Source of the DNA: Sycon ciliatum | Taxonomy: Eukaryota > Porifera > Calcarea > Leucosolenida > Sycettidae | Reading direction: 5' to 3' | DNA length: 64,000 nucleotides | Assembly: GCF_964019385.1 (NCBI RefSeq) | Contig: NC_088643.1 | Span: 4,068,829-4,132,828 of the forward strand | Shown here: one piece after another, positions 4,741-36,950 of the stretch | Layout: the number at the start of each line of letters is the position of its first letter | Numbering within the stretch: position 1 is the first letter of the stretch | Notes under the pieces: generated by a model | Told to the model about the DNA's origin: nothing | What the model saw: the letters and a program-made list of their open reading frames with translations, nothing else | The model's database searches: none | Program-made: the position numbers and the translations under genes

Positions 4741-5376
4741 CTGCAGACAGCTTGAAAGACGTGTTGAAAAACACGGGACTTCCAACAAGCTAGGGAGAGG
4801 GAAGACGTGTTGAAAAACACGGGACTTCCAACAAGCTGACAAGAATGGACGTAAACAAAACCTGTTGCTGTCTTTGCACTATTTGCTATGTTCTTGAAAA
4901 CAAGAAAACATGTTTTCACATATTCGCGCTCCACTTCCAGCATGCAGGGCGTTTTACCGTATTGCACTACACCCTACTCGCGTCCCTAGTACTGTACTAC
5001 ACCCATGACAACAGTGTACTAAAATACCGTGCATCTTGCTAAAGGTCTAAATCAAATCACGGTACTTTTTCCTTTACGGTAATACCGTTACAAAATAACG
5101 TTGTTTGCTAAGGGTGTCTACTAGTAACCCAGACTTCCCCGCACGCACACTAGCACACGCATGCGTGTACCTACATACACCCATCTCCACACACATCTCT
5201 ATCCGGCTGTCCACTTTCATTTCTCTCGGCGTATTTTTCTTCTCCTTTTTTCACGTGGACAATCAACCATCACATGTACCAGAGCTCAATAGAGACAGAA
5301 GGGGAAAGGTTAGCACTACATTGCTGCCCTGTACGCGAACTGTTCTATTATTATTATTACGGTAAAACACTTAAGT

Positions 5377-5421
5377 CTGTGGACAGCAACTGTTTCGCTC
5401 TGTTAGAGCTCATCAGCACAG
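5377..5421 (-). ncRNA. Hammerhead ribozyme, variant 2 (isolated copy)
   Basis: On the minus strand: stem I CTGTG/CACAG, core CTGATGA, stem II GCTC/GAGC with loop TAACA, core GAAA, stem III ACAG/CTGT with loop TTG, and cleavage triplet GTC. All invariant hammerhead positions are present. The ~110-bp neighbourhood (5373-5483) is nearly identical to that around 28880-28924, so this is a fragment of the same mobile repeat. It is cut off by the mariner-type MITE at 5489. Confidence 0.9.
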
Positions 5422-5488
5422 CTCAGAGGACCGAAGCGCAGCTCTTCGCAATGAAATACGTTTCCGTAAAGCAAAGCATTTTTTATTA

Positions 5489-5696
5489 CTGTAAAACATG
5501 TAATTTTCGGCGTAACTTTAATTTCGGTGATTTCGGTAGAGAAACCAGGCACCTAAATTAAAATTACACCTAAAAGGCACTAGGGTATGCACTGTATGTG
5601 GAGGGAACGCTGGTCACCTAATTCTAGATTACACCTGAAACCTGGCAGGTCCCTGGCACCGAAATTTTAATGCACCTAAAATTACATGTTTTACAG
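5489..5696. mobile_element. Tc1/mariner-type MITE, 208 bp
   Basis: Inverted ends CTGTAAAACATGTAATTTT lie directly inside a TA dinucleotide on both sides (5487-5488, 5697-5698), the target duplication of Tc1/mariner elements. It has no coding capacity. Internally a cctaaaattacac motif repeats in both orientations. Confidence 0.8.
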
Positions 5697-10711: not shown

Positions 10712-11004
10712 TAGTGTACATACGTATGTATCGAGAAGGCAGCACAGAAACGGCAGTGGTGGTGAGGCCTAGGCCTGGGCGGATAATGCTAGTTATTTTG
10801 CGGGATAATGCTTATGGCAATGCCAGAAAAACTGTATCATAATGCTACTTATAATGCTGCTGTTCCTCTGTAATGCCAGCAATTCACCAGTAGTAAGTAT
10901 GGAAAATGGCTTGGTTTGGGCAGTATTGTGCACGTTTTGTAGTTCTACGTAGACGACATGGAAAATGCTAGAAAATCATGATCATAATGCTAATTTTATT
11001 CAAT

Positions 11005-11048
11005 CTGCGGACAGAACTGTTTCGTCCTTTGTGGACTCGTCAGCGCAG
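11005..11048 (-). ncRNA. Hammerhead ribozyme, variant 1
   Basis: Stem I CTGCG/CGCAG, CTGACGA core, stem II GTCC/GGAC with loop ACAAA, GAAA, stem III ACAG/CTGT with loop TT, cleavage after GTC. This is a type I hammerhead with a very short stem III, as in retrozymes and Penelope-like elements. Confidence 0.93.
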
Positions 11049-11230
11049 CACAGAGGAAATGAGGCCGAACCTGATAGCAATGGAAATAAAAATTTCCAAT
11101 CAGGTCCGAACGTACCTTGCCAGAGTGCTCAAACTGACAAGTCAGTGAGCTCTGCATAACGCAAACAGCAAAGGCACTACCCCATGCAAGAGTGCTCAAC
11201 TGCTACAAGAGCAGGAGCGAAATACTCAAT

Positions 11231-11274
11231 CTGCGGACAGAACTGTTTCGTCCTTTGTGGACTCGTCAGCGCAG
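11231..11274 (-). ncRNA. Hammerhead ribozyme, variant 1 (second monomer)
   Basis: Identical to the motif 226 bp to the left; all core residues and stems are retained. Confidence 0.93.
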
Positions 11275-11456
11275 CACAGAGGAAATGAGGCCGAACCTGA
11301 TAGCAATGGAAATGAAAATTTCCAATCAGGTCCGAACGTACCTTGCCAGAGTGCTCAAACTGACAAGTCAGTGAGCTCTGCATAACGCAAACAGCAAAGG
11401 CACTACCCCACGCAAGAGTGCTCAACTGCTACAAGAGCAGGAGCGAAATACTCAAT

Positions 11457-11500
11457 CTGCGGACAGAACTGTTTCGTCCTTTGTGGACTCGTCAGCGCAG
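11457..11500 (-). ncRNA. Hammerhead ribozyme, variant 1 (third monomer)
   Basis: Exactly 226 bp from the previous copy. The downstream part of this monomer is truncated at the insertion end (11575). Confidence 0.93.
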
Positions 11501-12383
11501 CACAGAGGAAATGAGGCCGAACCTGATAGCAATGGAAATAAAAATTTCCAATCAGTTCCAATTTCCAAATTTCCAATAATGCTAATTTTATGCTGCTCTT
11601 GCTCCATACAATCCCTTGCAGCTAGCTGTCCAGCGAGGAAAGTCTCGAGTGGAGGCCTCTTGATCTGCTCGCTCATTCGCCTGGCATTCAGTAGCACTTC
11701 ATCGCCAAGGACTTCAATTCAAAACAGTTTTCACACTGCGCTTCAAACCTTTTCCCTCGTGAACTTGCTGCAAACGTATGAGCTCTGCTGCGCGTGTTCC
11801 CTTTGTGCGAGGCCCAGAAACAGCTAGTATCTCCGTACTTCGATTGGCTGGATCGATGTCGTCCAGGTCTTCTTCGCTATCGCCATCACGACTCTAACTG
11901 GAGACGATTTCTTCACCATTTTCCGCAAGTAGCAGCTAGCGCAGAAACTTCGACATCCCTGAGTGTAGGAGATGGAATCCATTCGATCAGCCCCAAAACT
12001 CTTCGTTGTGACTAGAGAGTAGAGTAGAGGAGTAGCAGGGAATATTCTACCGGAAGCCCACTGACTTCCCTGACTGCTGAAACCCTTCCTGCGCGCTACT
12101 TCTTCAAACAAGCGAGATTCTCTTGACTTAGACTTTAGTTTGGTTCCACTTCACTGCCCACGAGCGTCCATGCGACCACAACCTTTTTACAAAACATCAT
12201 TTTTCTCAAAAAATGATTTTCACCCAAAGCCTGGTTTTCGCAGAAGTATTAGTTGGGCCATTTGAGTATAATGCCACTTTTGTGGAAATGTAGTGTTATA
12301 ATGCTAGCATAATGGCTAAAATGCTCGTTGCAAATCACACACTATAATGCTACTTATAATGCTAGCATTATCCGCCCAGGCCT

Positions 12384-12781
12384 AGTGTAGTAGTGAGGCC
12401 TGGGCAGCTCATCCGACCGTGGGTCTCGGAGTCAACACTAGGCAGACGCACCAGGAGGGGGGGGGGGGGGGTGGTAGCTTAGGAGATAAGGGATGGAGCC
12501 AGCGTGATCATAGTATGTAATGCATATGCAGAAGTAATATGTAAATCTTAAAAACAATAGTGTGGTGGACCTGCGCAGAGGAAAGGCATCATGGACATGA
12601 TCTACGTGTATAACTTATAAGTGAGCTAGGGCACATCGTACACACACATTATTTTGCGCATGTTCAAATAGGAGATCAACCTGATAGGCGTTCACCGGCG
12701 TTGGGTAATCCTGAAATAAAGATATTAATATTATTTAAGAAATTATTATCATACGCTCACATAAACACCACATACCAACCA
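12384..12781. other. No gene; G-homopolymer and unique sequence
   Basis: A run of about 14 G lies at 12458-12471. The rest is AT-rich without ORFs or repeat ends that I could recognise. Confidence 0.5.
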
Positions 12782-13012
12782 TGTACACATTGGTCCTTGG
12801 TAACACTGCCATCCAAATTAATGGTCACGTGTCCCCTGTGCAGGGGTCGACAGCACTGAGTTCAGCATTGGATCCAGAAAGGCCGCTCTATTTCCTGGAC
12901 AGGAAATTAGTACAGCTATGCAGGTCGAAACCACGGGATGACTTGCAGCAGCGACCGCAGCCGAGACCGCAGGGCAGGGCAACCCGCTGTTTCCGGACCA
13001 AGTCTGCCGATT
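12782..13012 (-). pseudogene. LINE zinc-finger 3' ORF fragment
   Basis: On the minus strand it encodes LVRKQRVALP and GCGRCCKSSRGFDLHSC, then NFLSRK and a stop. It is almost identical to the C-terminal part of 22685-23060, with an internal deletion of a few codons. Fragment of the same repeat family, non-functional. Confidence 0.7.
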
Positions 13013-13695
13013 CAGTAGCACTTCATCGCCAAGGACTTCAATTCAAAACAGTTTTCACACTGCGCTTCAAGCCTTTTCCCTCGTGAACTTGCTGCAAACG
13101 TATGAGCTCTGCTGCGCGTGTTCCTTTTGTGCGAGGCCCAGAAACAGCTAGTATCTCCGTACTTCGATTGGCTGGATCGATGTCGTCCAGGTCTTCTTCG
13201 CTATCGCCATCACGACTCTAACTGGAGACGATTTCTTCACCATTTTCCGCAAGTAGCAGCTAGCGCAGAAACTTCGACATCCCTGAGTGTAGGAGATGGA
13301 ATCCATTCGATCAGCCCAAAAACTCTTCGTTGTGACTAGAGAGTAGAGTAGAGGAGTAGCAGGGAATATTCTACCGGAAGCCCACTGACTTCCCTGACTG
13401 CTGAAACCCTTCCTGCCATGACTGCTACTTCTTCAAACAAGCGAGATTCTCTTTACTTTGGTTCCACTTCACTGCCCTCGAGCGTCCACGCGACGCAACC
13501 TTTTTACAAAACATCATTTTTCTTAAAAAAATGATTATCACCCTAAGCCTGGTTTTCGCAGAAGTATTAGTTGGGCCATTTGAGTATAATGCCACTTTTG
13601 TCGAAATGTAGTGTTATAATGCTAGCACAATGTGCTCGTTGCAAATCACACAATAATGCTAATTATAATGCTAGCATTATCCGCCCAGGCCTAGC
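13013..13695. repeat. Direct duplicate of 11685-12383
   Basis: Apart from scattered differences, the sequence from the cattcagtagcacttcatcg block to the terminal ATTATCCGCCCAGGCCT repeats that of 11685-12383. It is a 5'-truncated second copy of the TIR element. It abuts the Penelope fragment directly. Confidence 0.85.
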
Positions 13696-14727: not shown

Positions 14728-14773
14728 CCTCTAGACAGCTGTTTCGCTCCCTGTCGGAGCTCATCAGTAGAGG
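14728..14773 (-). ncRNA. Hammerhead ribozyme, variant 3
   Basis: Minus strand: stem I CCTCTA/TAGAGG (6 bp), CTGATGA, stem II GCTCC/GGAGC with loop GACAG, GAAA, a tiny stem III ACA/TGT closed by GC, cleavage after GTC. It belongs to the ~856-bp unit interrupted five bases later by the gypsy element. The next copy is at 19926. Confidence 0.9.
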
Positions 14774-14778
14774 ATGAT

Positions 14779-14977
14779 TGTTATGTCGGGTTCAGCAAAG
14801 CACAATCACAGGGTCGGAGAAAACTACCATTACAAGTACATCTGGAAGAACAGTCCGAAAGCAAGCAAGGGGCGGGAAAAGAACACAGCTCCACTAGAAG
14901 TTATGCAGATTCAGAGACCGCGCATGCGGACTGGTGTACACACAATAATGATGTCATGCAACTACACATACACTACA
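14779..14977 (-). repeat. 3' LTR of the Ty3/gypsy element
   Basis: 199 bp, in the minus orientation of the element; by eye the same as 18918-19116. Element coding ends about 120 bp to its right. Confidence 0.95.
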
Positions 14978-15098
14978 ATCTCCCCCTTCAAAAACACAAG
15001 GGAGAGCCTAACAGAGGGAAGGACAGTGTGCGAAGAGTGAGCATTATGAGAAGGCGGCTGAACATGAACAAGAGAACAGAGCGGTGCTCTAGAATAGT

Positions 15099-18000
15099 TC
15101 AGTCCCTGTAGCGCTGTGGCTTCAGTGCGTGACGCCTTGATGGCGTCCGAGCATCACGTTGCTGAACTACCTTCTCAGGATCAGAGGGAAGCTCAGGAGT
15201 CGTTGCAGGATCACGAACACGCAGCTGGTCCACATGTCTACGCACAATGACACCATTGGCCAGCTTAACTTCGAAAGACTTGGTGCCTTTCCGCTGCAAT
15301 ACGGTGCCAGCTGACCACTTCTGAGGCTGGTTGAACATCCGCGCATAGACGGCGCTGCCTTCGTCCAACCCTTTTGCTGGCGGCTGGTGGCAGGCAGCGG
15401 TGGTGGTATTCTTGGCTTGCGGCTGTACCAGGTGCAGTCTGGTCTTGAGCTCCCGTTGAAGGAACAATGCCGATGGAGTTTCTCCTGTTGTCGCGTGAGG
15501 AGTCGAGCGATACCGTTCCAAGAACGTCTGCAGTGCCTCGGTCCAGGACAGTAGACCACGCTTCTCACTCAGCAAGGCAGCTTTGAATGTTTGGACACAG
15601 CGTTCTGCAGCTCCGTTGGTTGCGGGGAAGTATGGTGCACTGCGCAGGTGGATGATACTTCTCTCAGCCATGAAGTTGCTCCACTCCACGGACGTGAACT
15701 GCGGGCCGTTGTCCGTCACGATTGCATCAGGAGAACCATACGCCGCAAACAGCTTCCGGAACTCTGCGATAGTCGTCTTGCTGGTGGTGGAGGACATAGG
15801 AATCACTTCCAACCACTTGGAGAATGCATCAGTCACGATCAAATACATTCGTCCTTCCATTGGTCCAGCAAAATCGGCGTGAATGCGACTCCAGGGTGCT
15901 GCTGGATTGGGCCAACGTGTCACCTCCACTGGTTGATCACGATTCCTGTTCACTTGGCATGCATGGCAGCTTCGGACGGCTCGCTCCACGTCGCTGTCAA
16001 GACCTGGCCACCATACATGGTTCCTTGCCAAAGCCTTCATGCGCACCATACCAGGGTGTGCAATGTGTAACTCTTGAAGGAGCCGGGGCTGAAGCGTGCT
16101 AGGCACCACCGTGCGAAATCCTCGCTGAAGGCAGCCCTGGACTACTGTGAGCTCCTCTGCGATGCGGTGGAAGGGCTTCAGCTCTGAGGGGACAGTCTCG
16201 GGCCAACCATTGGCGACATGCTGCAGTACCTGCTTGAGCACGATGTCCTTGGCCGTCTCTGCACTGATGTCTGCTGCGAGGACTGGCAGCTGATCCTGGT
16301 GAGTCGTCAGAATCTCAGACACCTCACACACATCAACGCTATGCGAATCAAGCGACATGCGTGACAGGTAATCAGCGTTGGCGTTGGCTTCAGTCGTCTT
16401 TACCATCACATCGTATTGATACGCTGATAGTGTTACAGCCCAACGCTGCAACCGCATGGCTGCGATTGAGGGGATGCCTCTCTTTGGACCGAAGATTACG
16501 GCAAGAGGGCGGTTGTCGGTCACCAGGTTGAAGTGCCGTCCATAGAGGTACAAGTGGAACTTGGTGACACCGAACACGATAGCAAGCGCTTCTCGTTCCA
16601 GTTGGCTATAATTGCGCTCGCTGGTTGTCAAAGAGCGGCTGGCGTATGCGATTGGTTGCTCCTGCCCTTCCGGCATCACATGGGACAAGACAGCACCAAT
16701 TCCTGTGCCTGATGCATCGCAGGTCAGACGTAGCGGTAGCGAAGGGCTATAATGAACTAGAACTGGTGGTGCACTCAGAGCTGACTTCAAAGCTCTGAAG
16801 GCTTGCTGCTGTGGCGCTTGCCATTTCCAGACGGTGTTACGCTTCTGGAGATCGTAGAGAGGCTGTGCGAGCGAAGCCAGGTTCTCAATGAACTGGCCAT
16901 AATAATTCACCAGACCCAAGAATGACTTGAGCTCCGTGACATTCGTCGGTGCACGTGCGTTCTGAACCGCTTGCACTTTCTCATCGGTGGCGTGTAGACC
17001 CGACGCGTCAATTTTGAAGCCGAGGTACTGGACTGAGTCGGAGAAGAACATGCATTTCGATTTCTTTAGCTTCAGACCAGCTTGCAACAGAATCGACAAC
17101 ACCGTGTTCAGACGTTCCAGCAGTAGTCTGCGAGTGGGTGCAGCGATCAGGATGTCGTCCAGGTACTTGGACACGCCTTCCAAGCCAACCAGGAGCTTGT
17201 CCATGATTCCTTGGAACACCGCTGGAGCCGATGCAACACCGTAGGGCAGACGATTGAACTGGTACAGGCCCTTGTGCGTGTTGATGGTAGTCATCTTCTG
17301 GGACGCCTCATCCAACGGCACTTGCAGATACGCCTGCGACAAATCCAGCTTCGCAAAATATTTGCAGCCATTCAGGGAGCTGAAGATGTCCTGCGCTGTC
17401 GGCAGTGGGTGCTGGTCCACTCGTAGTTGGGGATTCACAGTGACCTTGTAGTCACCGCAGAGACGAACTGAGCCATCGGGCTTTGGAACAGCCACTACTG
17501 GTGTTGCCCACTCGCTGTGCTTGACAGGCTCTATAATGTGCTGCTGCTCCATCTTCCTGAGCTGCTCCTCAACCAAGGGCTTGACAGCGTACGGCACTGA
17601 ATAGGGACGCCTGAACACCGGTCGTGCGTCCTCTTTCAGATGCAAGGTAGATGCGCCTGTTCGCAGCTCACCAACGTGGCCGTCAAACAAGGTCGCGTTG
17701 TCCGCAACTATCCGCTCCAAATCGGGTCCATCCGTAGGTTCGTCAACCCCAAACACGGATGACCAATCGAGTCGGACGTGTGGCAACCAATTCCTTCCGA
17801 GCAGTGTAGCACCCTCGCCTTCAACAATGAGCAGTGGCAATGGCGTTGTACGGCCATCATAGCATACCTCCACTGTGGCTTGACCCAACACATTGATTTC
17901 ATCACCTGTGTACGAGCGCAGCTTGATGTTCGCCGGTTCGAGTTGTTTGTCACTGGTACGATCCCACGTCTCACGTGACATAAGGCTCACTGCAGCTCCG

Positions 18001-18896
18001 GTGTCGAGCACCATTGTCGTTTCCACCCCGTCTAACATCACATTCACAGTTAGCTTGGGACGGGACTCTACGGAGTACACATCACCAACTTCATGCTCCT
18101 CACATACAAAATTGGTTTGGTGTTGGTCGCCCTTTTTCGTACGACACACCTTCTCGAGGTGCCCACGCTTGTGGCAGTAGTGGCACTCGGAAGCCTTGAA
18201 GCGACACTGTGAAGGAGCATGGTCCTTATTGCCACAGCGATAACAAGGCGCAGCCCCGTCAGTAGTGCTGCTAGCGCTGGCTCCGGACTTGCCTCGCTGT
18301 CTAGGTGCAGGTGGCTGTCTCTTGTGCCAAACGGCATGGACATCGCTGGATTCGGAGGTAGATCTACCCGCGGCCATCAAGCGCGCAGCCTCGCGATCGA
18401 CCACCTCCTGAGCTGCAGCCGTTTTCAGAGCAGTCTCCAAAGTGAGGGCATCGATGGTCAGCAATTTTTTACAAACGACAGCGTCTCGTATGCCACAGAC
18501 GAACCTGTCGCGGATGGCATCTTCCAGACCATTGCCGAAGTCACAGGTCTTTGCCAAACGTCGTAGCTCAGCGGCATAGTCATGATAACTCTCACTTGCC
18601 TGCTGGCTGCGGCTCCAAAATTTGTAGCGTTCCGCAATTGTCAGACGCTTAGGGGAGAAGTGTGCAGTCAGAGTCTGTCGCAGCTCTGAGAGGGACTTGT
18701 CATCCAGTGTTGCTGGTGCGATCAGCGTCACTAGCAACCTGAAAACACTTTCTCCTACAACTGTCAAGAATACAGATTTCTTCCGCCCGTCCTCAATTTT
18801 ATTCGCTTTGTAGAATTGATCCAGCCTGGCCAGATAAGACTCCCAGTCATCAGCATCAGTAGATGTGAAGGGGCCCAGGTTTCCGAGCAGCGCCAT
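15099..18896 (-). CDS. gag-pol: Ty3/gypsy Gag-Pol polyprotein, intact
   Basis: A single frame of about 1,265 codons. The ATG at 18896 is preferred because earlier in-frame codons lie in the LTR. Order by approximate residue: gag capsid region (1-200); two CCHC knuckles, CYRCGNKDHAPSQC and CHYCHKRGHLEKVC (220-250); aspartic protease VLDTGAAVSL (~295); RT with YLDDILIA (~575); RNase H CDASGTGIGAVL (~720); integrase zinc domain ending CHACQ (~935-975); integrase catalytic HADFAGP, VTDNGPQF and NGAAERCVQ (~995, 1050, 1085). All catalytic motifs are present and there is no frameshift between gag and pol. There is no chromodomain or envelope. It is a candidate for current activity. Confidence 0.95.
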   Translation of the reverse strand: MALLGNLGPFTSTDADDWESYLARLDQFYKANKIEDGRKKSVFLTVVGESVFRLLVTLIAPATLDDKSLSELRQTLTAHFSPKRLTIAERYKFWSRSQQASESYHDYAAELRRLAKTCDFGNGLEDAIRDRFVCGIRDAVVCKKLLTIDALTLETALKTAAAQEVVDREAARLMAAGRSTSESSDVHAVWHKRQPPAPRQRGKSGASASSTTDGAAPCYRCGNKDHAPSQCRFKASECHYCHKRGHLEKVCRTKKGDQHQTNFVCEEHEVGDVYSVESRPKLTVNVMLDGVETTMVLDTGAAVSLMSRETWDRTSDKQLEPANIKLRSYTGDEINVLGQATVEVCYDGRTTPLPLLIVEGEGATLLGRNWLPHVRLDWSSVFGVDEPTDGPDLERIVADNATLFDGHVGELRTGASTLHLKEDARPVFRRPYSVPYAVKPLVEEQLRKMEQQHIIEPVKHSEWATPVVAVPKPDGSVRLCGDYKVTVNPQLRVDQHPLPTAQDIFSSLNGCKYFAKLDLSQAYLQVPLDEASQKMTTINTHKGLYQFNRLPYGVASAPAVFQGIMDKLLVGLEGVSKYLDDILIAAPTRRLLLERLNTVLSILLQAGLKLKKSKCMFFSDSVQYLGFKIDASGLHATDEKVQAVQNARAPTNVTELKSFLGLVNYYGQFIENLASLAQPLYDLQKRNTVWKWQAPQQQAFRALKSALSAPPVLVHYSPSLPLRLTCDASGTGIGAVLSHVMPEGQEQPIAYASRSLTTSERNYSQLEREALAIVFGVTKFHLYLYGRHFNLVTDNRPLAVIFGPKRGIPSIAAMRLQRWAVTLSAYQYDVMVKTTEANANADYLSRMSLDSHSVDVCEVSEILTTHQDQLPVLAADISAETAKDIVLKQVLQHVANGWPETVPSELKPFHRIAEELTVVQGCLQRGFRTVVPSTLQPRLLQELHIAHPGMVRMKALARNHVWWPGLDSDVERAVRSCHACQVNRNRDQPVEVTRWPNPAAPWSRIHADFAGPMEGRMYLIVTDAFSKWLEVIPMSSTTSKTTIAEFRKLFAAYGSPDAIVTDNGPQFTSVEWSNFMAERSIIHLRSAPYFPATNGAAERCVQTFKAALLSEKRGLLSWTEALQTFLERYRSTPHATTGETPSALFLQRELKTRLHLVQPQAKNTTTAACHQPPAKGLDEGSAVYARMFNQPQKWSAGTVLQRKGTKSFEVKLANGVIVRRHVDQLRVRDPATTPELPSDPEKVVQQRDARTPSRRHALKPQRYRD

Positions 18897-18917
18897 GATC
18901 CGATCTTCGTCGCCACT

Positions 18918-19116
18918 TGTTATGTCGGGTTCAGCAAAGCACAATCACAGGGTCGGAGAAAACTACCATTACAAGTACATCTGGAAGAACAGTCCGAAAG
19001 CAAGCAAGGGGCGGGAAAAGAACACAGCTCCACTAGAAGTTATGCAGATTCAGAGACCGCGCATGCGGACTGGTGTACACACAATAATGATGTCATGCAA
19101 CTACACATACACTACA
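18918..19116 (-). repeat. 5' LTR of the Ty3/gypsy element
   Basis: Promoter-side LTR in the minus orientation. Immediately inside it the minus strand reads agtggcgacgaagatcgga, the position of a primer-binding site; the matching tRNA was not determined. Confidence 0.93.
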
Positions 19117-19121
19117 ATGAT

Positions 19122-20391
19122 AATGATGATAATGGAGGAATGATCATTCTTATACACCAGAAATGGCGCAAGTGCGCGCTTTCCACATAATTATATCAAT
19201 GGCATATGCAAGCTGCTAAAATGGTAAAGTGTGAGAACAGCGATAAATAATCATAGTAAGCGCTCATTGGTGGAGAAACACACCACACAGGCGACGAAAA
19301 TCTTACGCGGAATACTAATGCCAAAGGAAAGTACATGTATGTTGTTTATTATTATGATGTTGCAATGTCCATGTATGCAGGCCAGGCGAGACTCACCGCC
19401 GAGATCCCCCAACGCGACAGGTTCGGTTGCCGTTCAGGATTCACACCGACCTGTCCGCCCGTCAACAGGATCGACAGCGGGAGGCCCCACTGATGCCGAT
19501 GTCGATGTACACCAGGAAACTGGTAGTCGTGAGTGTGATACTAACAGGTCCATCGGCAACCACTGACAAACGAGAGGCCAGCTGGGGCATTCACTCCAGT
19601 CAGGGATGCTTGGTCGACGCTTCGTATCAGCAGCTCAGCTCATTTTGATCAAACAAAGATGTTGCAGATGTGTCTTGCTTTTCTCCTTCCTTCTTCACCG
19701 ACTCGTCTTGTCATCTCTCCTTCTTTCTTCACCGACTCTTCGTGTCCACTCTGCTCTGCCACTAACGGCGCATTAAAACTTCAGAACTAAATATTGCGAC
19801 AGAGCTTTCGGCCATATTTTCAATTCATTGCATTCCCAACTCATCACAACCACGCGCTCTTCAGCTGAACCATACAGACACCAGCAAGGACACTTCCGTT
19901 GAGAGATAATGATTATTGCTCCACGCCTCTAGACAGCTGTTTCGCTCCCTGTCGGAGCTCATCAGTAGAGGATGATAATGATGATAATGGAGGAATGATC
20001 ATTCTTATACACCAGAAATGGCGCAAGTGCGCGCTTTCCACATATATCAATGGCATATGCAAGCTGCTAAAATGGTAAAGTGTGAGAACAGCGATAAATA
20101 ATCATAGTACGCGCTCATTGGTGGAGAAACACACCACACAGGCGACGAAAATCTTACGCGGAATACTGATGCCAAAGGAAAGTACATGTATGTTGTTTAT
20201 TATTATGATGTTGCAATGTCCATGTATGCAGGCCAGGCGAGACTCACCGCCGAGATCCCCCAACGCGACAGGTTCGGTTGCCGTTCAGGATTCACACCGA
20301 CCTGTCCGCCCGTCAACAGGATCGACAGCGGGAGGCCCCATTGATGCCGATGTCGATGCACACCAGGAAACTTGTAGTCGTGAGTGATGAG
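19122..20391 (-). repeat. ~856-bp hammerhead unit, direct copies (1.5)
   Basis: The first unit runs from the aatgatgataatgg block at 19122 to about 19977; the second starts there and stops at about 20391. Each full unit carries one minus-strand hammerhead. Counting out the gypsy insertion, the hammerhead at 14728 is ~855 bp from that at 19926, so the left flank of the gypsy element is a third unit. The longest ORFs inside (about 110 codons) show no known domain. Confidence 0.85.
19926..19971 (-). ncRNA. Hammerhead ribozyme, variant 3 (second unit)
   Basis: Same stems and core as 14728-14773; no difference seen across the catalytic motif. Confidence 0.9.
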
Positions 20392-21693
20392 TTGGGAATG
20401 CAATGAATTGAAAATATGGCCGAAAGCTCTGTCGCAATATTTAGTTCTGAAGTTTTAATGCGCCGTTAGTGGCAGAGCAGAGTGGACACGAAGAGTCGGT
20501 GAAGAAAGAAGGAGAGATGACAAGACGAGTCGGTGAAGAAGGAAGGAGAAAAGCAAGACACATCTGCAACATCTTTGTTTGATCAAAATGAGCTGAGCTG
20601 CTGATACGAAGCGTCGACCAAGCATCCCTGACTGGAGTGAATGCCCCAGCTGGCCTCTCGTTTGTCAGTGGTTGCCGATGGACCTGTTAGTATCACACTC
20701 ACGACTACAAGTTTCCTGGTGTGCATCGACATCGGCATCAGTGGGGCCTCCCGCTGTCGATCCTGTTGACGGGCGGACAGGTCGGTGTGAATCCTGAACG
20801 GCAACCGAACCTGTCGCGTTGGGGGATCTCGGTGGTGAGTCTCGCCTGGCCTGCATACATGGACATTGCAACATCATAATAATAAACAACATACATGTAC
20901 TTTCCTTTGGCATCAGTATTCCGCGTAAGATTTTCGCCGCCTGTGTGGTGTGTTTCTCCACCAATGAGCGCGTACTATGATTATTTATCGCTGTTCTCAC
21001 ACTTTACCATTTTAGCAGCTTGCATATGCCATTGATATAATTATGTGGAAAGCGCGCACTTGCGCCATTTCTGGTGTATAAGAATGATCATTCCTCCATT
21101 ATCATCATTATCATCCTCTACTGATGAGCTCCGACAGGGAGCGAAACAGCTGTCTAGAGGCGTGGAGCAATAATCATTATCTCTCAACGGAAGTGTCCTT
21201 GCTGGTGTCTGTATGGTTCGGCTGAAGAGCGCGTGGTTGTGATGAGTTGGGAATGCAATGAATTGAAAATATGGCCGAAAGCTCTGTCGCAATATTTAGT
21301 TCTGAAGTTTTAATGCGCCGTTAGTGGCAGAGCAGAGTGGACACGAAGAGTCGGTGAAGAAAGAAGGAGAGATGACAAGACGAGTCGGTGAAGAAGGAAG
21401 GAGAAAAGCAAGACACATCTGCAACATCTTTGTTTGATCAAAATGAGCTGAGCTGCTGATACGAAGCGTCGACCAAGCATCCCTGACTGGAGTGAATGCC
21501 CCAGCTGGCCTCTCGTTTGTCAGTGGTTGCCGATGGACCTGTTAGTATCACACTCACGACTACAAGTTTCCTGGTGTGCATCGACATCGGCATCAGTGGG
21601 GCCTCCCGCTGTCGATCCTGTTGACGGGCGGACAGGTCGGTGTGAATCCTGAACGGCAACCGAACCTGTCGCGTTGGGGGATCTCGGCGGTGA
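20385..21693 (+). repeat. ~856-bp hammerhead unit, inverted copies (1.5)
   Basis: From the gatgagttgggaatgcaatg block at 20390 the sequence is the reverse complement of the left array. The same block recurs at 21241, giving a period near 856 bp. The array ends at about 21693 where Penelope C-terminal coding begins. Together with 19122-20391 it forms a ~2.6-kb imperfect palindrome with its axis near 20390. Confidence 0.85.
21115..21160 (+). ncRNA. Hammerhead ribozyme, variant 3 (inverted unit)
   Basis: Plus strand: CCTCTA, CTGATGA, GCTCC/GGAGC, GAAA, ACA/TGT, GTC, TAGAGG. Identical to the left-array copies but in the opposite orientation. Confidence 0.9.
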
Positions 21694-21699
21694 GTCTCA

Positions 21700-23880: not shown

Positions 23881-24110
23881 CACTGCTCCATACATTCTTA
23901 TGGTAGTGTAGTGTAAACTTGAGGCACGTAAGAATATTCTTGCTGATTCTCTACCCCCAGTATAAATTCTGGCTTCGTTTTCGTTCTTGCTCATTCCCAT
24001 GTAACCACTGATGAAAATGGGTGAAAAGCTTTTGGTATTATGAAACTGACAACCTTGTTGTTGTGTGTATATAAATTTTGTTCGCCTACCTCTCTATTTA
24101 AATATATATA
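23881..24110 (+). repeat. PLE 3' UTR/tail, plus orientation
   Basis: Continues the tail broken at 22008: ctgctccatacattcttatg to gttcgcctacctc, ending in TA-rich sequence. It matches 28686-28875 and, inverted and interrupted, 24842-28432. It leads directly into the hammerhead array. Confidence 0.8.
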
Positions 24111-24246
24111 TATGATCGTGCAGTGTATGATCGTGCAGTGTATATATATATATATATACAGTTTGAGCACTCTGGCAAGGTACGTTCGGGCCTGATTGGA
24201 AATTTTTATTTCCATTGCTATCAGGTTCGGCCTCATTTCCTCTGTG

Positions 24247-24290
24247 CTGCGCTGACGAGTCCACAAAGGACGAAACAGTTCTGTCCGCAG
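24247..24290 (+). ncRNA. Hammerhead ribozyme, variant 1
   Basis: CTGCG/CGCAG stem I, CTGACGA, GTCC-ACAAA-GGAC, GAAA, ACAG-TT-CTGT, GTC. All conserved positions present. Confidence 0.93.
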
Positions 24291-24472
24291 ATTGAGTATT
24301 TCGCTCCTGCTCTTGTAGCAGTTGAGCACTCTTGCGTGGGGTAGTGCCTTTGCTGTTTGCGTTATGCAGAGCTCACTGACTTGTCAGTTTGAGCACTCTG
24401 GCAAGGTACGTTCGGGCCTGATTGGAAATTTTTATTTCCATTGCTATCAGGTTCGGCCTCATTTCCTCTGTG

Positions 24473-24516
24473 CTGCGCTGACGAGTCCACAAAGGACGAA
24501 ACAGTTCTGTCCGCAG
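24473..24516 (+). ncRNA. Hammerhead ribozyme, variant 1
   Basis: Second monomer of the array, identical core and stems. Confidence 0.93.
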
Positions 24517-24698
24517 ATTGAGTATTTCGCTCCTGCTCTTGTAGCAGTTGAGCACTCTTGCGTGGGGTAGTGCCTTTGCTGTTTGCGTTATGCAGAGCTC
24601 ACTGACTTGTCAGTTTGAGCACTCTGGCAAGGTACGTTCGGGCCTGATTGGAAATTTTTATTTCCATTGCTATCAGGTTCGGCCTCATTTCCTCTGTG

Positions 24699-24742
24699 CT
24701 GCGCTGACGAGTCCACAAAGGACGAAACAGTTCTGTCCGCAG
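24699..24742 (+). ncRNA. Hammerhead ribozyme, variant 1
   Basis: Third monomer of the array. The strand after stem I (attgag) runs into the TA-repeat junction. Confidence 0.93.
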
Positions 24743-24770
24743 ATTGAGTATATATATATATATACTCAAT

Positions 24771-24816
24771 CTGCGGACAGCATGCTGTTTCGTTCTTTTT
24801 GAACTCATCAGCGCAG
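24771..24816 (-). ncRNA. Hammerhead ribozyme, variant 4, head-to-head with the array
   Basis: Minus strand: CTGCG, CTGATGA, stem II GTTC/GAAC with loop AAAAA, GAAA, stem III ACAGC-AT-GCTGT, GTC, CGCAG. Substitutions in stem II are compensated on both sides, which points to selection for folding. It is followed on the minus strand's 5' side by PLE tail sequence (24842-24867). Confidence 0.92.
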
Positions 24817-25199
24817 CACAGAGGAAATGAGGCCGAACCTGATAGAGAGGTAGGCGAACAAAATTTATATATGTTGGACTCAGTAGAGCGTCCAGCCCCT
24901 ATATGATGTCCAAGCCCTATATAGAGTCCATTGGTCCAAAATCCACTGTACAGAGTCCAAACTTGGAATCAACTGTGAGCTCAAAGTTTCGATGGACATC
25001 ACTCCCTGTATAGAGTCCAGCCAATTGGCTTCACCCCTATATAGAGTCCATTGGTCCAAAATCAACTGTACGGAGTCCAAACTTTGAAATCAACTATAAA
25101 GAGTCTTTATGTGGACAACACCCCCTGTATAAAGTCCAGCCAATTAGGCATCCCCTATCGAGTTCGAAAATAGACATAGGATCTGCTGTAAGCAGTGAA

Positions 25200-28621: not shown

Positions 28622-28879
28622 CAACTTTATCACGTGTTTGTTCTGGTACTGCATTCCCCTCATGTGTTGTTTCCCGCATTTTTCCACTGCTCCATACATT
28701 CTTATGGTAGTGTAGTGTGAACTTGAGGCGCGTAAGAATATTCTTGCTGATTCTCTACCCCCAGTATAAATTCTGGCTTCGTTTTCGTTCTTGCTCATTC
28801 CCATGTAACCACTGATGAAAATGGGTGAAAAGCTTTTGGTATTATGAAACTGACAACCTTGGTGTTGTGTGTATCAAGT

Positions 28880-28924
28880 CTGTGGACAGCAACTGTTTCG
28901 CTCTGTTAGAGCTCATCAGCACAG
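28880..28924 (-). ncRNA. Hammerhead ribozyme, variant 2, between two PLE copies
   Basis: Minus strand: CTGTG/CACAG stem I, CTGATGA, GCTC-TAACA-GAGC, GAAA, ACAG-TTG-CTGT, GTC. It lies five bases after the upstream PLE tail and about 360 bp before the ATG of the next PLE ORF, so it is in the inter-copy (pseudo-LTR) position. Its strand is opposite to the neighbouring ORFs. Confidence 0.92.
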
Positions 28925-29022
28925 CTCAGAGGACCGAAGCGCAGCTCTTCGCAATGAAATATGTTTCCGTAAAGCAAAGCATTTTTATAAAGAGCTGCAA
29001 ATCCCGCCAAGATATAGATATA

Positions 29023-29226: not shown

Positions 29227-29279
29227 TGTGTGAAGGCTCTCTTTTATAGATTGAGCACTCTTTCTCAGATACCGCAGCT

Positions 29280-31372
29280 ATGGACCCACCAAGACGGACG
29301 GACCTCGGCTATTCCCTCGGGAATATACCCATCCCATCAGCAGACTCCTACCGAAAGTGTCTGGTGGAGAAAGTGGAGAGTGTAATACGCCGGATGAGGT
29401 GGAAGGCGTTCTTCTTTCTCAACGGCGAGACCAGAGCGCAGGAGACCGAGACATATGGTTTCCCAAGCCAGAAGACGCCACCGCTAGTGCCGCAGCTAAA
29501 GGCATTCGAAGACGAACTTTTGAACCTGGTAGCAGACCTGGAATTCAGAAATGTGTCGGATCCATTCCAGCGGCAATTGAAGGAGGACGTCAAAGCGCTA
29601 ACAGACACGGACGACATCATAGTGAAAGCCGACAAAACAAAAAACCTATACAAAGTAAGCAAGCGTCAATACGAGAAACTGCTGAGAGACAACGTCACGG
29701 CCAATTATAGACAAGCACCGGATACAACATACACCGACATTAATCAAGAAGCACAGCAGTTGGCGGAGCGCCTGAATATCAGCGACCGGGTCGACGCAAT
29801 GGCAAAGTCAGAGGCATTTGTGAGTTTCAAGGACCACAAGGATCGCTTCACCAACAACCTCCCGTGCAGGCTTATCAACCCCGCAAAGTCTGAACTTGGA
29901 GTCGTGAGTAAATCCATACTGGACAGAATTGTGAGAGCCGTCAATTTGGCAACGGACGTCAACCTTTGGAGGAGCACGGCATCAGTCATCGAGTGGTACG
30001 AAAACAACCAGGACAAGCAACAGCACACATTCATATGCTTTGACGTTGTAGAGTATTATCCCTCCATCACAGAAGCACTCCTCGCGAAGGCCCTGGATTT
30101 TGCGTCCACGTACACTAACATCGAGGACGGGGAAAGGGAGATTGTCATGCACACACGAAAATCAGTGTTGTTCAAAGACGGCCAACCTTGGGTGAAGAAG
30201 AACAACGCCAGCACGTTCGATGTCACCATGGGCTCGTTCGATGGCGCGGAAGTGTGTGAGCTGGTTGGCGTATATATGCTCCACGAACTAACAGCCCACG
30301 TCGGCAGAGCGCAGATCGGCCTGTACAGGGACGACGGCTTGGCTGTGCTGAGAAACACCACCGGCAGCGCGGCAAAGCGCATACGGAAGAGTTTGACGGC
30401 GGTGTTTGCAGGGCATGGACTAAAGGTAACGATTGACACCAAACTAAAAGTCGTAAATTTCCTCGACGTGACGTTCAACCTGTCAACCGGAGGATACATG
30501 CCACACCGAAAGCCAGGCGACACACCGCCGTACATCAACACTCACTCAAACCACCCACCGTCCATAATAAAGCAACTGCCAGCAGGAATAAGCCGACGTG
30601 TGTCAACCAACTCATCAAGTGAGGAAGCATTTAACGAAGCTGCGCCTATGTACAACAACGCATTATTGGCCAGTGGATACGCGGAAGGTATTGAGTACAT
30701 GGGGCAACCAGCACAGAAAAACAGAAAGCGAAACCGAAAAAGAAAAATAACATAGTTCAACCCTCCTTTCAGCCGTAGCGTGAGAACAAACGTTGCTGCT
30801 GCCTTCCTCACAATGATCGACCGGCATTTCAAAAACACCCCCCTGAAAAAGATCTTCAACCGACATAACGTGAAGGTTAGCTATTCATGTATGCCCAACA
30901 TCGCAGCGATTATTAGTGGGCACAACAAGCGGCAACTGATACAAGAACCTCCTGAAAGGCCTTGCAATTGTAGGAAAAAGCAGGAATGCCCCATGGAAGG
31001 ACGTTGCCAGGCCTCTCACGTCGTCTATGAAGCACACGTCACCAGCCAGGATGAGCTCAGGACATACATAGGCTCAGATACAGCAACCACACGATGTCCT
31101 TCCGCCACGAAAAATACCGCACTAACACGGAGCTCTCCAAACACCTCTGGAAAAAGAAAAACGACAACAAAGAGTATCACCTGTCCTGGAGGATCAAGGA
31201 CAAGGCCAGCTCCTACAACCCCGCAACGAAGAGATGTTGCCTTTGCACCACGGAGAAGGTGCGTATACTCACTGCTGACAAGACCAAAATACTCAACAAG
31301 CGAAGTGAAATCATCGCCAAATGTCGTCATGCAAACAAATACCGGCTCGCTAAGTATAACGGAATCACGTAA
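29280..31372 (+). pseudogene. Penelope-like element, RT plus GIY-YIG endonuclease ORF
   Basis: From the ATG at 29280 the ORF has the PLE N-terminal region, then the RT: FKDHKDRFTNNLPCRLI, SKSILDRIV, CFDVVEYYPSI and the catalytic box LYRDDGLAV. A TAG at 30753-30755 interrupts it where the frame otherwise runs straight on (VRTNVAAAFLTMIDRHF). A CxC...CP..GRC knuckle follows (near 30963), then the nuclease start YIG (near 31066). There a 22-bp deletion relative to 13695-14312 removes the conserved Arg segment and shifts the frame. The remaining C-terminus ends RLAKYNGIT at 31370. RT and telomere-like end-priming are known PLE functions. This copy has one nonsense codon and a broken nuclease but is otherwise near full length. 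Confidence 0.93.
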
Positions 31373-31464
31373 AACCGGACATGGACAGAGCAACCTGATG
31401 CCCAAGGGAACCAGACACACTGCACCATTATTGTTATGATTAACGCCAAATATAGCACCGTAAT

Positions 31465-36581: not shown

Positions 36582-36950
36582 GGCCTTACTTATACCCCCC
36601 TGACGCCAGGCATGCGCTAGTGAACTCCAGATTTACGTGCTCCATTCAGCGCTTGTTACAGTAATGGACAATTGATATCAATATTTTACACTGCCTGCAC
36701 CTAGCAGTAACTCTTCACTCTTCACACTTCACGCTTTCTTTTTGTGCGCCTTGCTGTGTGGTTGTGTATTTCTTTAGTGGACCTGACAGCCCTGCTTTAG
36801 TTAGAAAAGTTGCCTGACGATTGAAACTCAAGAAACTCGGAGTAGCAACGGATTGTGTATTCTTGGTGAGGACCGCTTCCATTGTATATACTTCGAAGTA
36901 TATATATATATATAAATAAAAAAAGGAAATGAATTGTGGGCCATGGGGAG
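36582..36950. other. No gene recognised
   Basis: Contains an inverted match to part of the palindrome loop at 29.1 kb (near 36845-36885) and a short TA run at 36898-36915. Otherwise unassigned. Confidence 0.4.

Follow-up and report, generated by a model that had tools for sequence, protein, structure and literature searches.

The window, i.e. the whole 64 kb stretch of Sycon ciliatum DNA analysed here, contains a transposon-like host element (10769–12385) with terminal inverted repeats (10769–10792 and 12362–12385) that are perfect over 24 bp. A search with the joined flanks of the insert described below revealed many genomic copies; with 40 of 366 candidates scored, this query ran through the insertion site in 40 others. 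A second copy in the window (13010–13694) is 5′-truncated and 94% identical, ends at the terminal repeat, and abuts a coding fragment resembling that of Penelope-like elements (PLEs). Besides the window's own copy, the retrozyme loci fetched in the genome survey (see below) contain host-element sequence at one place (L026, L027, L048), in the form of a 91 bp stretch with a 70% match.

Within the host element lies a tandem array (11000–11559, minus strand), for which tandem-repeat analysis gave a period of 226 bp, 2.5 copies and 98% matches. A type I hammerhead was found in the 3′-end unit (11004–11049, predicted cut between 11009/11010), in the middle unit (11230–11275, predicted cut between 11235/11236) and in the truncated 5′ unit (11456–11501, predicted cut between 11461/11462), all on the minus strand, which is consequently taken as the RNA sense. 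Each of the three was aligned with the model end to end and scored 30.1 bits, i.e. below the Rfam gathering score of 34 (E = 2.6e-5 for 801 bases searched), and a default scan did not list them. An exact search of a viral collection with a 25-base hammerhead pattern gave no match. The unit has a GC content of 49.6%, a 150-codon stop-free frame (11375–11827) crosses the array end, and inspection of the array disclosed no LTR, PBS, PPT or 4 bp duplications. With a type I hammerhead in every tandem unit and dispersed copies with target duplication, the array is most likely a retrozyme, a type of retroelement that is non-autonomous and apparently non-coding; from its sequence, multimeric RNA of the array is predicted to self-cut by type I hammerheads. 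A second array of the same retrozyme (24159–24751, plus strand, 2.6 units) is bounded by (TA)n. On the far side of this (TA)n, part of a sister retrozyme (24766–24845, minus strand, 91% identical) lies in inverted orientation, so that the two are arranged tail-to-tail. Matches to microRNA families at this tail-to-tail junction were judged to be inverted-repeat artefacts.

Several further elements in the window carry hammerhead-like sequences. A solo element of ~114 bp (5354–5497) contains a minus-strand Hammerhead_HH9 motif (29.0 bits, below gathering) and is flanked by TTATTAC[G/T]GTAAAAC at 5354–5368 and 5483–5497, a second, monomeric target duplication; a sister of its hammerhead is found at 28868–28929. 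A Ty3/gypsy-like element (14778–19118, from a reading of the minus-strand frame 15099–18944) has 202 bp LTRs (14778–14979 and 18917–19118) that are 100% identical and therefore point to recent insertion. It adjoins a 155 bp repeat with a hammerhead-like motif (14728–14773, 19926–19971 and 21115–21160). The region 19117–21698 consists of inverted and direct duplications of up to ~1 kb with 98–100% identity, and two more copies of the 155 bp hammerhead repeat lie inside.

The retrozyme array in the host element is enclosed by two exact plus-strand copies of ATAATGCTAATTTTAT, at 10984–10999 on the RNA-sense 3′ side of the insert and at 11576–11591, and a pattern search of the 64 kb window located this 16-mer nowhere else in exact form. 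Allowing up to 3 mismatches gave 12 matches in the window compared to 0.42 expected, a consequence of the repeats of a ATAATGCTA motif in the host element. At the 3′ junction no bases intervene between the 16-mer and the insert, which ends at 11000, 10 nt beyond the predicted hammerhead cut. The 5′ end is ragged (~11556–11575): the periodic match continues to 11559 but is interrupted by a mismatch at 11556, and a 20 nt filler (11556–11575, minus strand), read by eye as array-like repeats similar to TTTCCAA, separates the array from the 16-mer. Both the placement of the array between two 16 bp copies and the likeness of the 16-mer to a motif of the host element were part of the original prediction and hold, the array proper being confined to 11000–11559 and the rest up to 11575 being filler.

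The empty site that the original prediction proposed to seek in other host-element copies was found. A 198 nt query composed of both flanks joined by one 16-mer was searched in the S. ciliatum genome (538 Mb) and returned 41 matches from 40 of 366 candidates scored. All but one span the junction (192–202 bases, 93–99% identity), the remaining match covering query positions 4–95 only. In the ten best matches, which were read individually, the insert is absent and one 16-mer is present (3 exact, 7 with 1 substitution). The whole 2.5-mer was thus inserted as one piece, and 16 bp of target were duplicated in the process, as originally proposed. Recurrence of the ATAATGCTA motif in the host element could be taken to mean that two 16-mers were already in place and that the array arose between them without duplication. 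This reading is refuted, its probability being practically nil, as the ten empty copies have no second 16-mer and spans of 192–202 bases leave no room for one in a 198-base query.

The family was surveyed genome-wide with the monomer as query (123 matches; 40 of 164 candidates scored), and 38 loci were fetched and combined with the two window arrays (W1, the insert described above, and W2). Six loci (L045, L050, L052, L059, L066 and L067; 10 of 64 blocks) were dropped as later segmental duplicates, a choice made by judgement on shared flanks and ends; some of the loci that were kept share repeat contexts as well. A common 3′ end was observed in 49 of the remaining 54 blocks of at least 21 nt, reading, in RNA sense, ...CTGTC^CGCAGATTG followed by AG (47 blocks) or AA (2 blocks, including the window's array). 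Three diverged pieces (81–87% identical), a 21 bp match and a block cut at the locus end account for the other five. In 45 of the 49 blocks TA comes next, and A+T makes up 89% of the initial 15 bases of the target as compared to 51% in the window. Because the monomer query began at the 3′-end permutation, arrays of 1–2 units were ascertained with bias; those of at least two units should be unaffected, and with duplicates dropped all 23 of them end at the common position, which lies 11 nt beyond the predicted cut (10 nt in the window insert). Their 5′ ends are scattered over unit positions 1 to 209. A common 3′ end thus lies just past the hammerhead, next to AT-rich target sequence, and may represent an internal start of reverse transcription.

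Target duplications were evaluated at 18 loci, 26 of 44 having been excluded for a microsatellite score of at least 0.75 or for want of the common 3′ end; blocks shorter than ~81 nt were left out of this analysis as well as those of 5′-end clustering and left flanks. Exact duplications of at least 8 nt were detected at 13 of the 18 non-microsatellite loci and in 19 of 306 mismatched pairs of left and right flanks. Nine of these 13 duplications open with TA immediately behind GAG, and TA is hence part of the target and not only of the template. No exact duplication of this length was identified at the other five, of which L034 shows a 17 bp repeat with one mismatch (read by eye), and several 5′ junctions contain filler or microhomology. 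The original prediction had named two observations that would speak against it, and these diverge: an unoccupied copy with both 16-mers was not seen among the ten that were read, while arrays without an exact duplication of 8 nt or more do occur, at the five loci mentioned.

Comparison of 42 left flanks with the low-complexity filter on gave two adjacent pairs that are alike up to the array, one by an (ATT)n match and one because both arrays, differing in their 5′ ends, occupy the same (TA)n target; with no other upstream sequence in common, 5′ transduction was not seen among these flanks. A blast comparison of 39 predicted empty sites (duplicates included) with the fetched loci yielded 53 spanning alignments, mostly between arrays within one and the same (TA)n repeat context, and no weight is placed on it. 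There also appears to be a hot target, in that several arrays with different 5′ ends reside in (TA)n beside the same repeat end ...GTTCGCCTAC.TC.CTATTTAAA... (window 24060–24160; L039, L042, L053 and L057). A common 3′ end, scattered 5′ ends and duplications of 8–16 bp are marks of target-primed reverse transcription, and on these sequence features the family has very probably been copied in this way.

Units of the same array resemble one another more closely than units of different arrays. The comparison drew on 80 full units from 36 arrays, 19 of which have at least two full units. The array mean was 1.80 differences compared to 3.32 after shuffling (0 of 5000 shuffles as low); pooled over pairs the gap is smaller, with 2.49 within arrays compared to 3.35 between them. 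In L031, L041, L053, W2 and others, a variant is shared by every unit that covers its position. Conversely, W1 (139C/T), L032 and L060 mix variants at position 139, located in a hairpin loop, and L047, L054 and others mix unit variants at other sites, so that a single monomeric circle would be insufficient unless error or mutation contributed. In the hairpin GGAAATTTTTATTTCC, variation was seen at positions 135, 136, 137, 138 and 139 (unit numbering) of the T-rich loop, which is perhaps a site of reverse-transcription error.

Some duplicated loci have identical boundaries but differ in unit number, namely L049 (5.68), L050 (4.68), L066 (5.65) and L067 (4.68), as well as L058 (6.24) and L059 (7.25). 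Arrays therefore also change in place by whole units after insertion. Such loci would be accounted for if each array had grown from a monomer by unequal exchange and only the monomer had ever moved. As the only process, this is rejected and considered very improbable: copy numbers are mostly fractional and the 5′ ends of the 23 arrays of at least two units are spread around the unit, as results from insertion of 5′-truncated multimers, and some arrays have array-specific variants in every unit. The original proposal that the satellite moves as RNA-derived multimers is consequently supported by the empty site, the common 3′ end, the scattered 5′ ends and the duplications. Its further statement that expansion does not occur only in place holds for multimer insertion, with the qualification that whole-unit change in place takes place too.

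The form of the template was considered next to these data. The 5′ ends of seven of 37 arrays lie within 4 nt of the start point where 1.47 are expected (P = 0.0006), but this interval was set with the data in view; narrowing it to 3 nt leaves three of 37 (P = 0.11). In addition, one of the 37 (L051, at 10) is truncated where its locus begins, and the permutation of the query gives single-unit arrays an advantage. This clustering is no more than a hint of whole laps of copying. Insertion would proceed in the same manner if the template were a linear multimeric transcript that had escaped self-cleavage. The mixed variants in W1, L032, L060, L047 and L054 fit a heterogeneous multimer of this kind, and hammerhead mutants of an Anolis PLE are described as still inserting in vitro, with unprocessed RNA as the main substrate (PMC11167929). 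A linear template is nevertheless regarded as unlikely in view of the like units within L031, L053 and W2, the want of source-array 5′ transduction among the 42 left flanks, and the 5′ ends near the start point, subject to the query bias and interval width noted above. We infer, as the likely case, that the template was circular.

A candidate source of the copying enzyme is present in the window. Two adjacent plus-strand frames (29250–30755 and 30756–31439) form a PLE-like coding region (29250–31439) that is reverse transcriptase-like and has a GIY-YIG-like C-terminus. A search with the first frame scored 7,995 candidates, of which 2,627 were relatives at E = 1e-5. The structure model of its best homologue, P0001 (pLDDT 86.8), was compared by Foldseek, and its top match was telomerase TERT (E = 1.6e-8; TM only 0.34/0.41), closely followed by DRT9, R2, LINE-1 and viral polymerases. 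A top match to TERT is expected of PLEs, whose reverse transcriptase is described as telomerase-like (PMC11167929). On the basis of this model, and at low TM-scores, the PLE-like region appears to specify a reverse transcriptase of the telomerase-like type. The consensus sequence contains a C-terminal CNCR...YIGLTE...H..SF, read by eye as GIY-YIG-like; no GIY-YIG entry occurred among the 50 structure matches listed for P0001. No Pfam family was assigned to the PLE frames at E = 0.001, scans of the two frames and three homologues at E = 1 gave sub-cut-off matches or none, and a PDB sequence search gave matches at E > 0.2 only.

The 3′ end of a PLE lies at 36808–36884 (plus strand), where a minimal hammerhead-like motif, recognised by eye and not listed by Rfam, precedes a 40 nt tail, CCATTG and a TA-rich target. 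PLE 3′ ends were searched in the genome (40 of 139 candidates scored) and read in 10 loci from the search, in 15 further stretches (8 of them the same places), and in other loci where they occurred. Copies end in CCATTG followed by TA-rich sequence at 18 distinct terminal places, a count favoured by the presence of the boundary in the query, and at 7 internal places they run on into TGTACTAGC. A second retrozyme family, denoted B, behaves similarly: five terminal tails end in GCATTGGG/TA (the slash marking the junction), besides 2 internal junctions and 1 irregular one, and here too the count is favoured, as the search pattern contained the boundary.

Some PLEs and hammerhead elements meet at one site. 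Of the 18 PLE ends, five face a hammerhead element on the other side of their (TA)n, tail-to-tail in L039, L089 and L093 and tail-to-head in L074 and L094. Retrozymes themselves form 13 close pairs: 6 tail-to-tail, 5 head-to-head and 2 tandem. Head-to-head pairs are found at L043:1344–1512, L053:1–1231 and L068:672–1589, with a 2 nt junction overlap in L043 and L053. In L043 and L068 the microsatellites around the two outer tails resemble each other, an arrangement expected from twin priming.

LINE-like features, too, include a fixed 3′ end, truncation at the 5′ end and 8–16 bp duplications, and target-primed insertion could on these grounds have been performed by a LINE-type enzyme in place of one from a PLE. 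Inspection of the loci revealed no poly(A) or simple-repeat 3′ tail belonging to the retrozyme itself, the inverted neighbour pairs fit cleavage of two strands, and hammerhead, start rule and (TA)n sites are common to retrozymes and PLEs; a LINE-type enzyme is accordingly judged decidedly unlikely. A PLE enzyme is the likely candidate. Against it speaks that the PLE tail extends 40 nt past its cut and the retrozyme end only 10–12 nt, with the shared near-end ATTG being short. The UA common to retrozyme RNA and target, which contrasts with the Anolis start site (see below), also counts against it. Moreover, (TA)n targets are common, so that a target shared by PLEs and retrozymes need not mean a shared enzyme.

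The scheme we consider probable is that a circular retrozyme monomer is copied into an array by a PLE enzyme through target priming. The monomer RNA, released by putative ribozyme activity, would circularise and be bound by the PLE reverse transcriptase/endonuclease, which would open an AT-rich site directly before TA. The 3′ end of the target would prime reverse transcription at the internal GAG/UA, 10–12 nt past the ribozyme cut, as in sibling arrays. Reverse transcription would circle the template ~2.5 times and halt at an arbitrary point, and joining of the product to a staggered second cut via slipped filler would leave 16 bp duplicated. A more far-reaching version treats animal retrozymes as PLE parasites, copied in rolling-circle, target-primed fashion from a fixed ATTG(R)G/UA with stops that tend to whole laps. 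Both strands would be opened by the PLE enzyme, giving tail-to-tail and head-to-head pairs, some of them PLE–retrozyme pairs, at one (TA)n. We see the prospects of this broader version as evenly balanced.

Parts of this scheme have precedents. Animal retrozymes were named by Cervera & de la Pena in 2020, with the proposal that circles are copied into multimers, and PLEs were put forward as strong candidates for their mobilisation, target duplications being of larger size when present (PMC7229834). Movement as RNA-derived multimers had therefore already been proposed for animal retrozymes, and the role of PLEs is a published guess (PMC7229834). A 2020 review finds in animal retrozymes no conserved motif from which the mobilising element could be deduced (PMC7761336), and a 2024 review again mentions LINEs or PLEs as candidate movers (PMC11722881). 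For the Anolis PLE protein, an internal start of reverse transcription downstream of the hammerhead and a preference for AT-rich sites were described (Frangieh 2024, PMC11167929), and the protein cuts and extends both strands (PMC11167929). A partial survey of the literature gave no report of a fixed start point in retrozymes, of a corresponding feature in PLEs that share their genome, or of retrozyme ends adjoining PLE ends at a common (TA)n.

As compared to the metazoan non-LTR retrozymes described in PMC7229834, the S. ciliatum family is alike in its type I hammerhead, its apparently non-coding nature and a GC content below 50%. Tandem units are 150–450 bp there and 226 bp here, dimers to multimers occur in both, and target duplications, when present, exceed 4 bp, as they do here. 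What the present case, which deals with DNA only, adds is the precise position of the 3′ end, an empty site and a rule for targets. Poseidon, the Anolis PLE, likewise has a hammerhead upstream of a fixed internal start, AT-rich targets and tail ends (PMC11167929). Unlike Poseidon, the retrozyme appears to be non-coding, and it starts 10–12 nt past the cut as compared to ~85–92 nt in Anolis (PMC11167929); the S. ciliatum PLE ends 40 nt past its hammerhead-like motif. Furthermore, the Anolis start site is described as having no homology to the cut DNA (PMC11167929), whereas retrozyme RNA and target share UA in S. ciliatum. Plant LTR retrozymes are similar in that hammerhead circles are thought to be retrotransposed into multimers (PMC4918200, PMC7761336), but they carry type III hammerheads, LTRs, a PBS and 4 bp duplications (PMC7761336), none of which were seen in the S. 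ciliatum array. Type I hammerheads are found, finally, in the satellite-like W-elements of Schistosoma, for which an example of a presumed target duplication was given (PMC8490949); no fixed end or empty site was found in the text consulted on those elements.

Taken together, the insertion in the host element demonstrates one way in which a single event can create a "satellite" array. The junction rule turns the published suspicion of PLE involvement into a testable claim, and the common 3′ end in two hammerhead families, together with its counterpart in PLEs, provides a mark for the mobilising element that can be tested in vitro.
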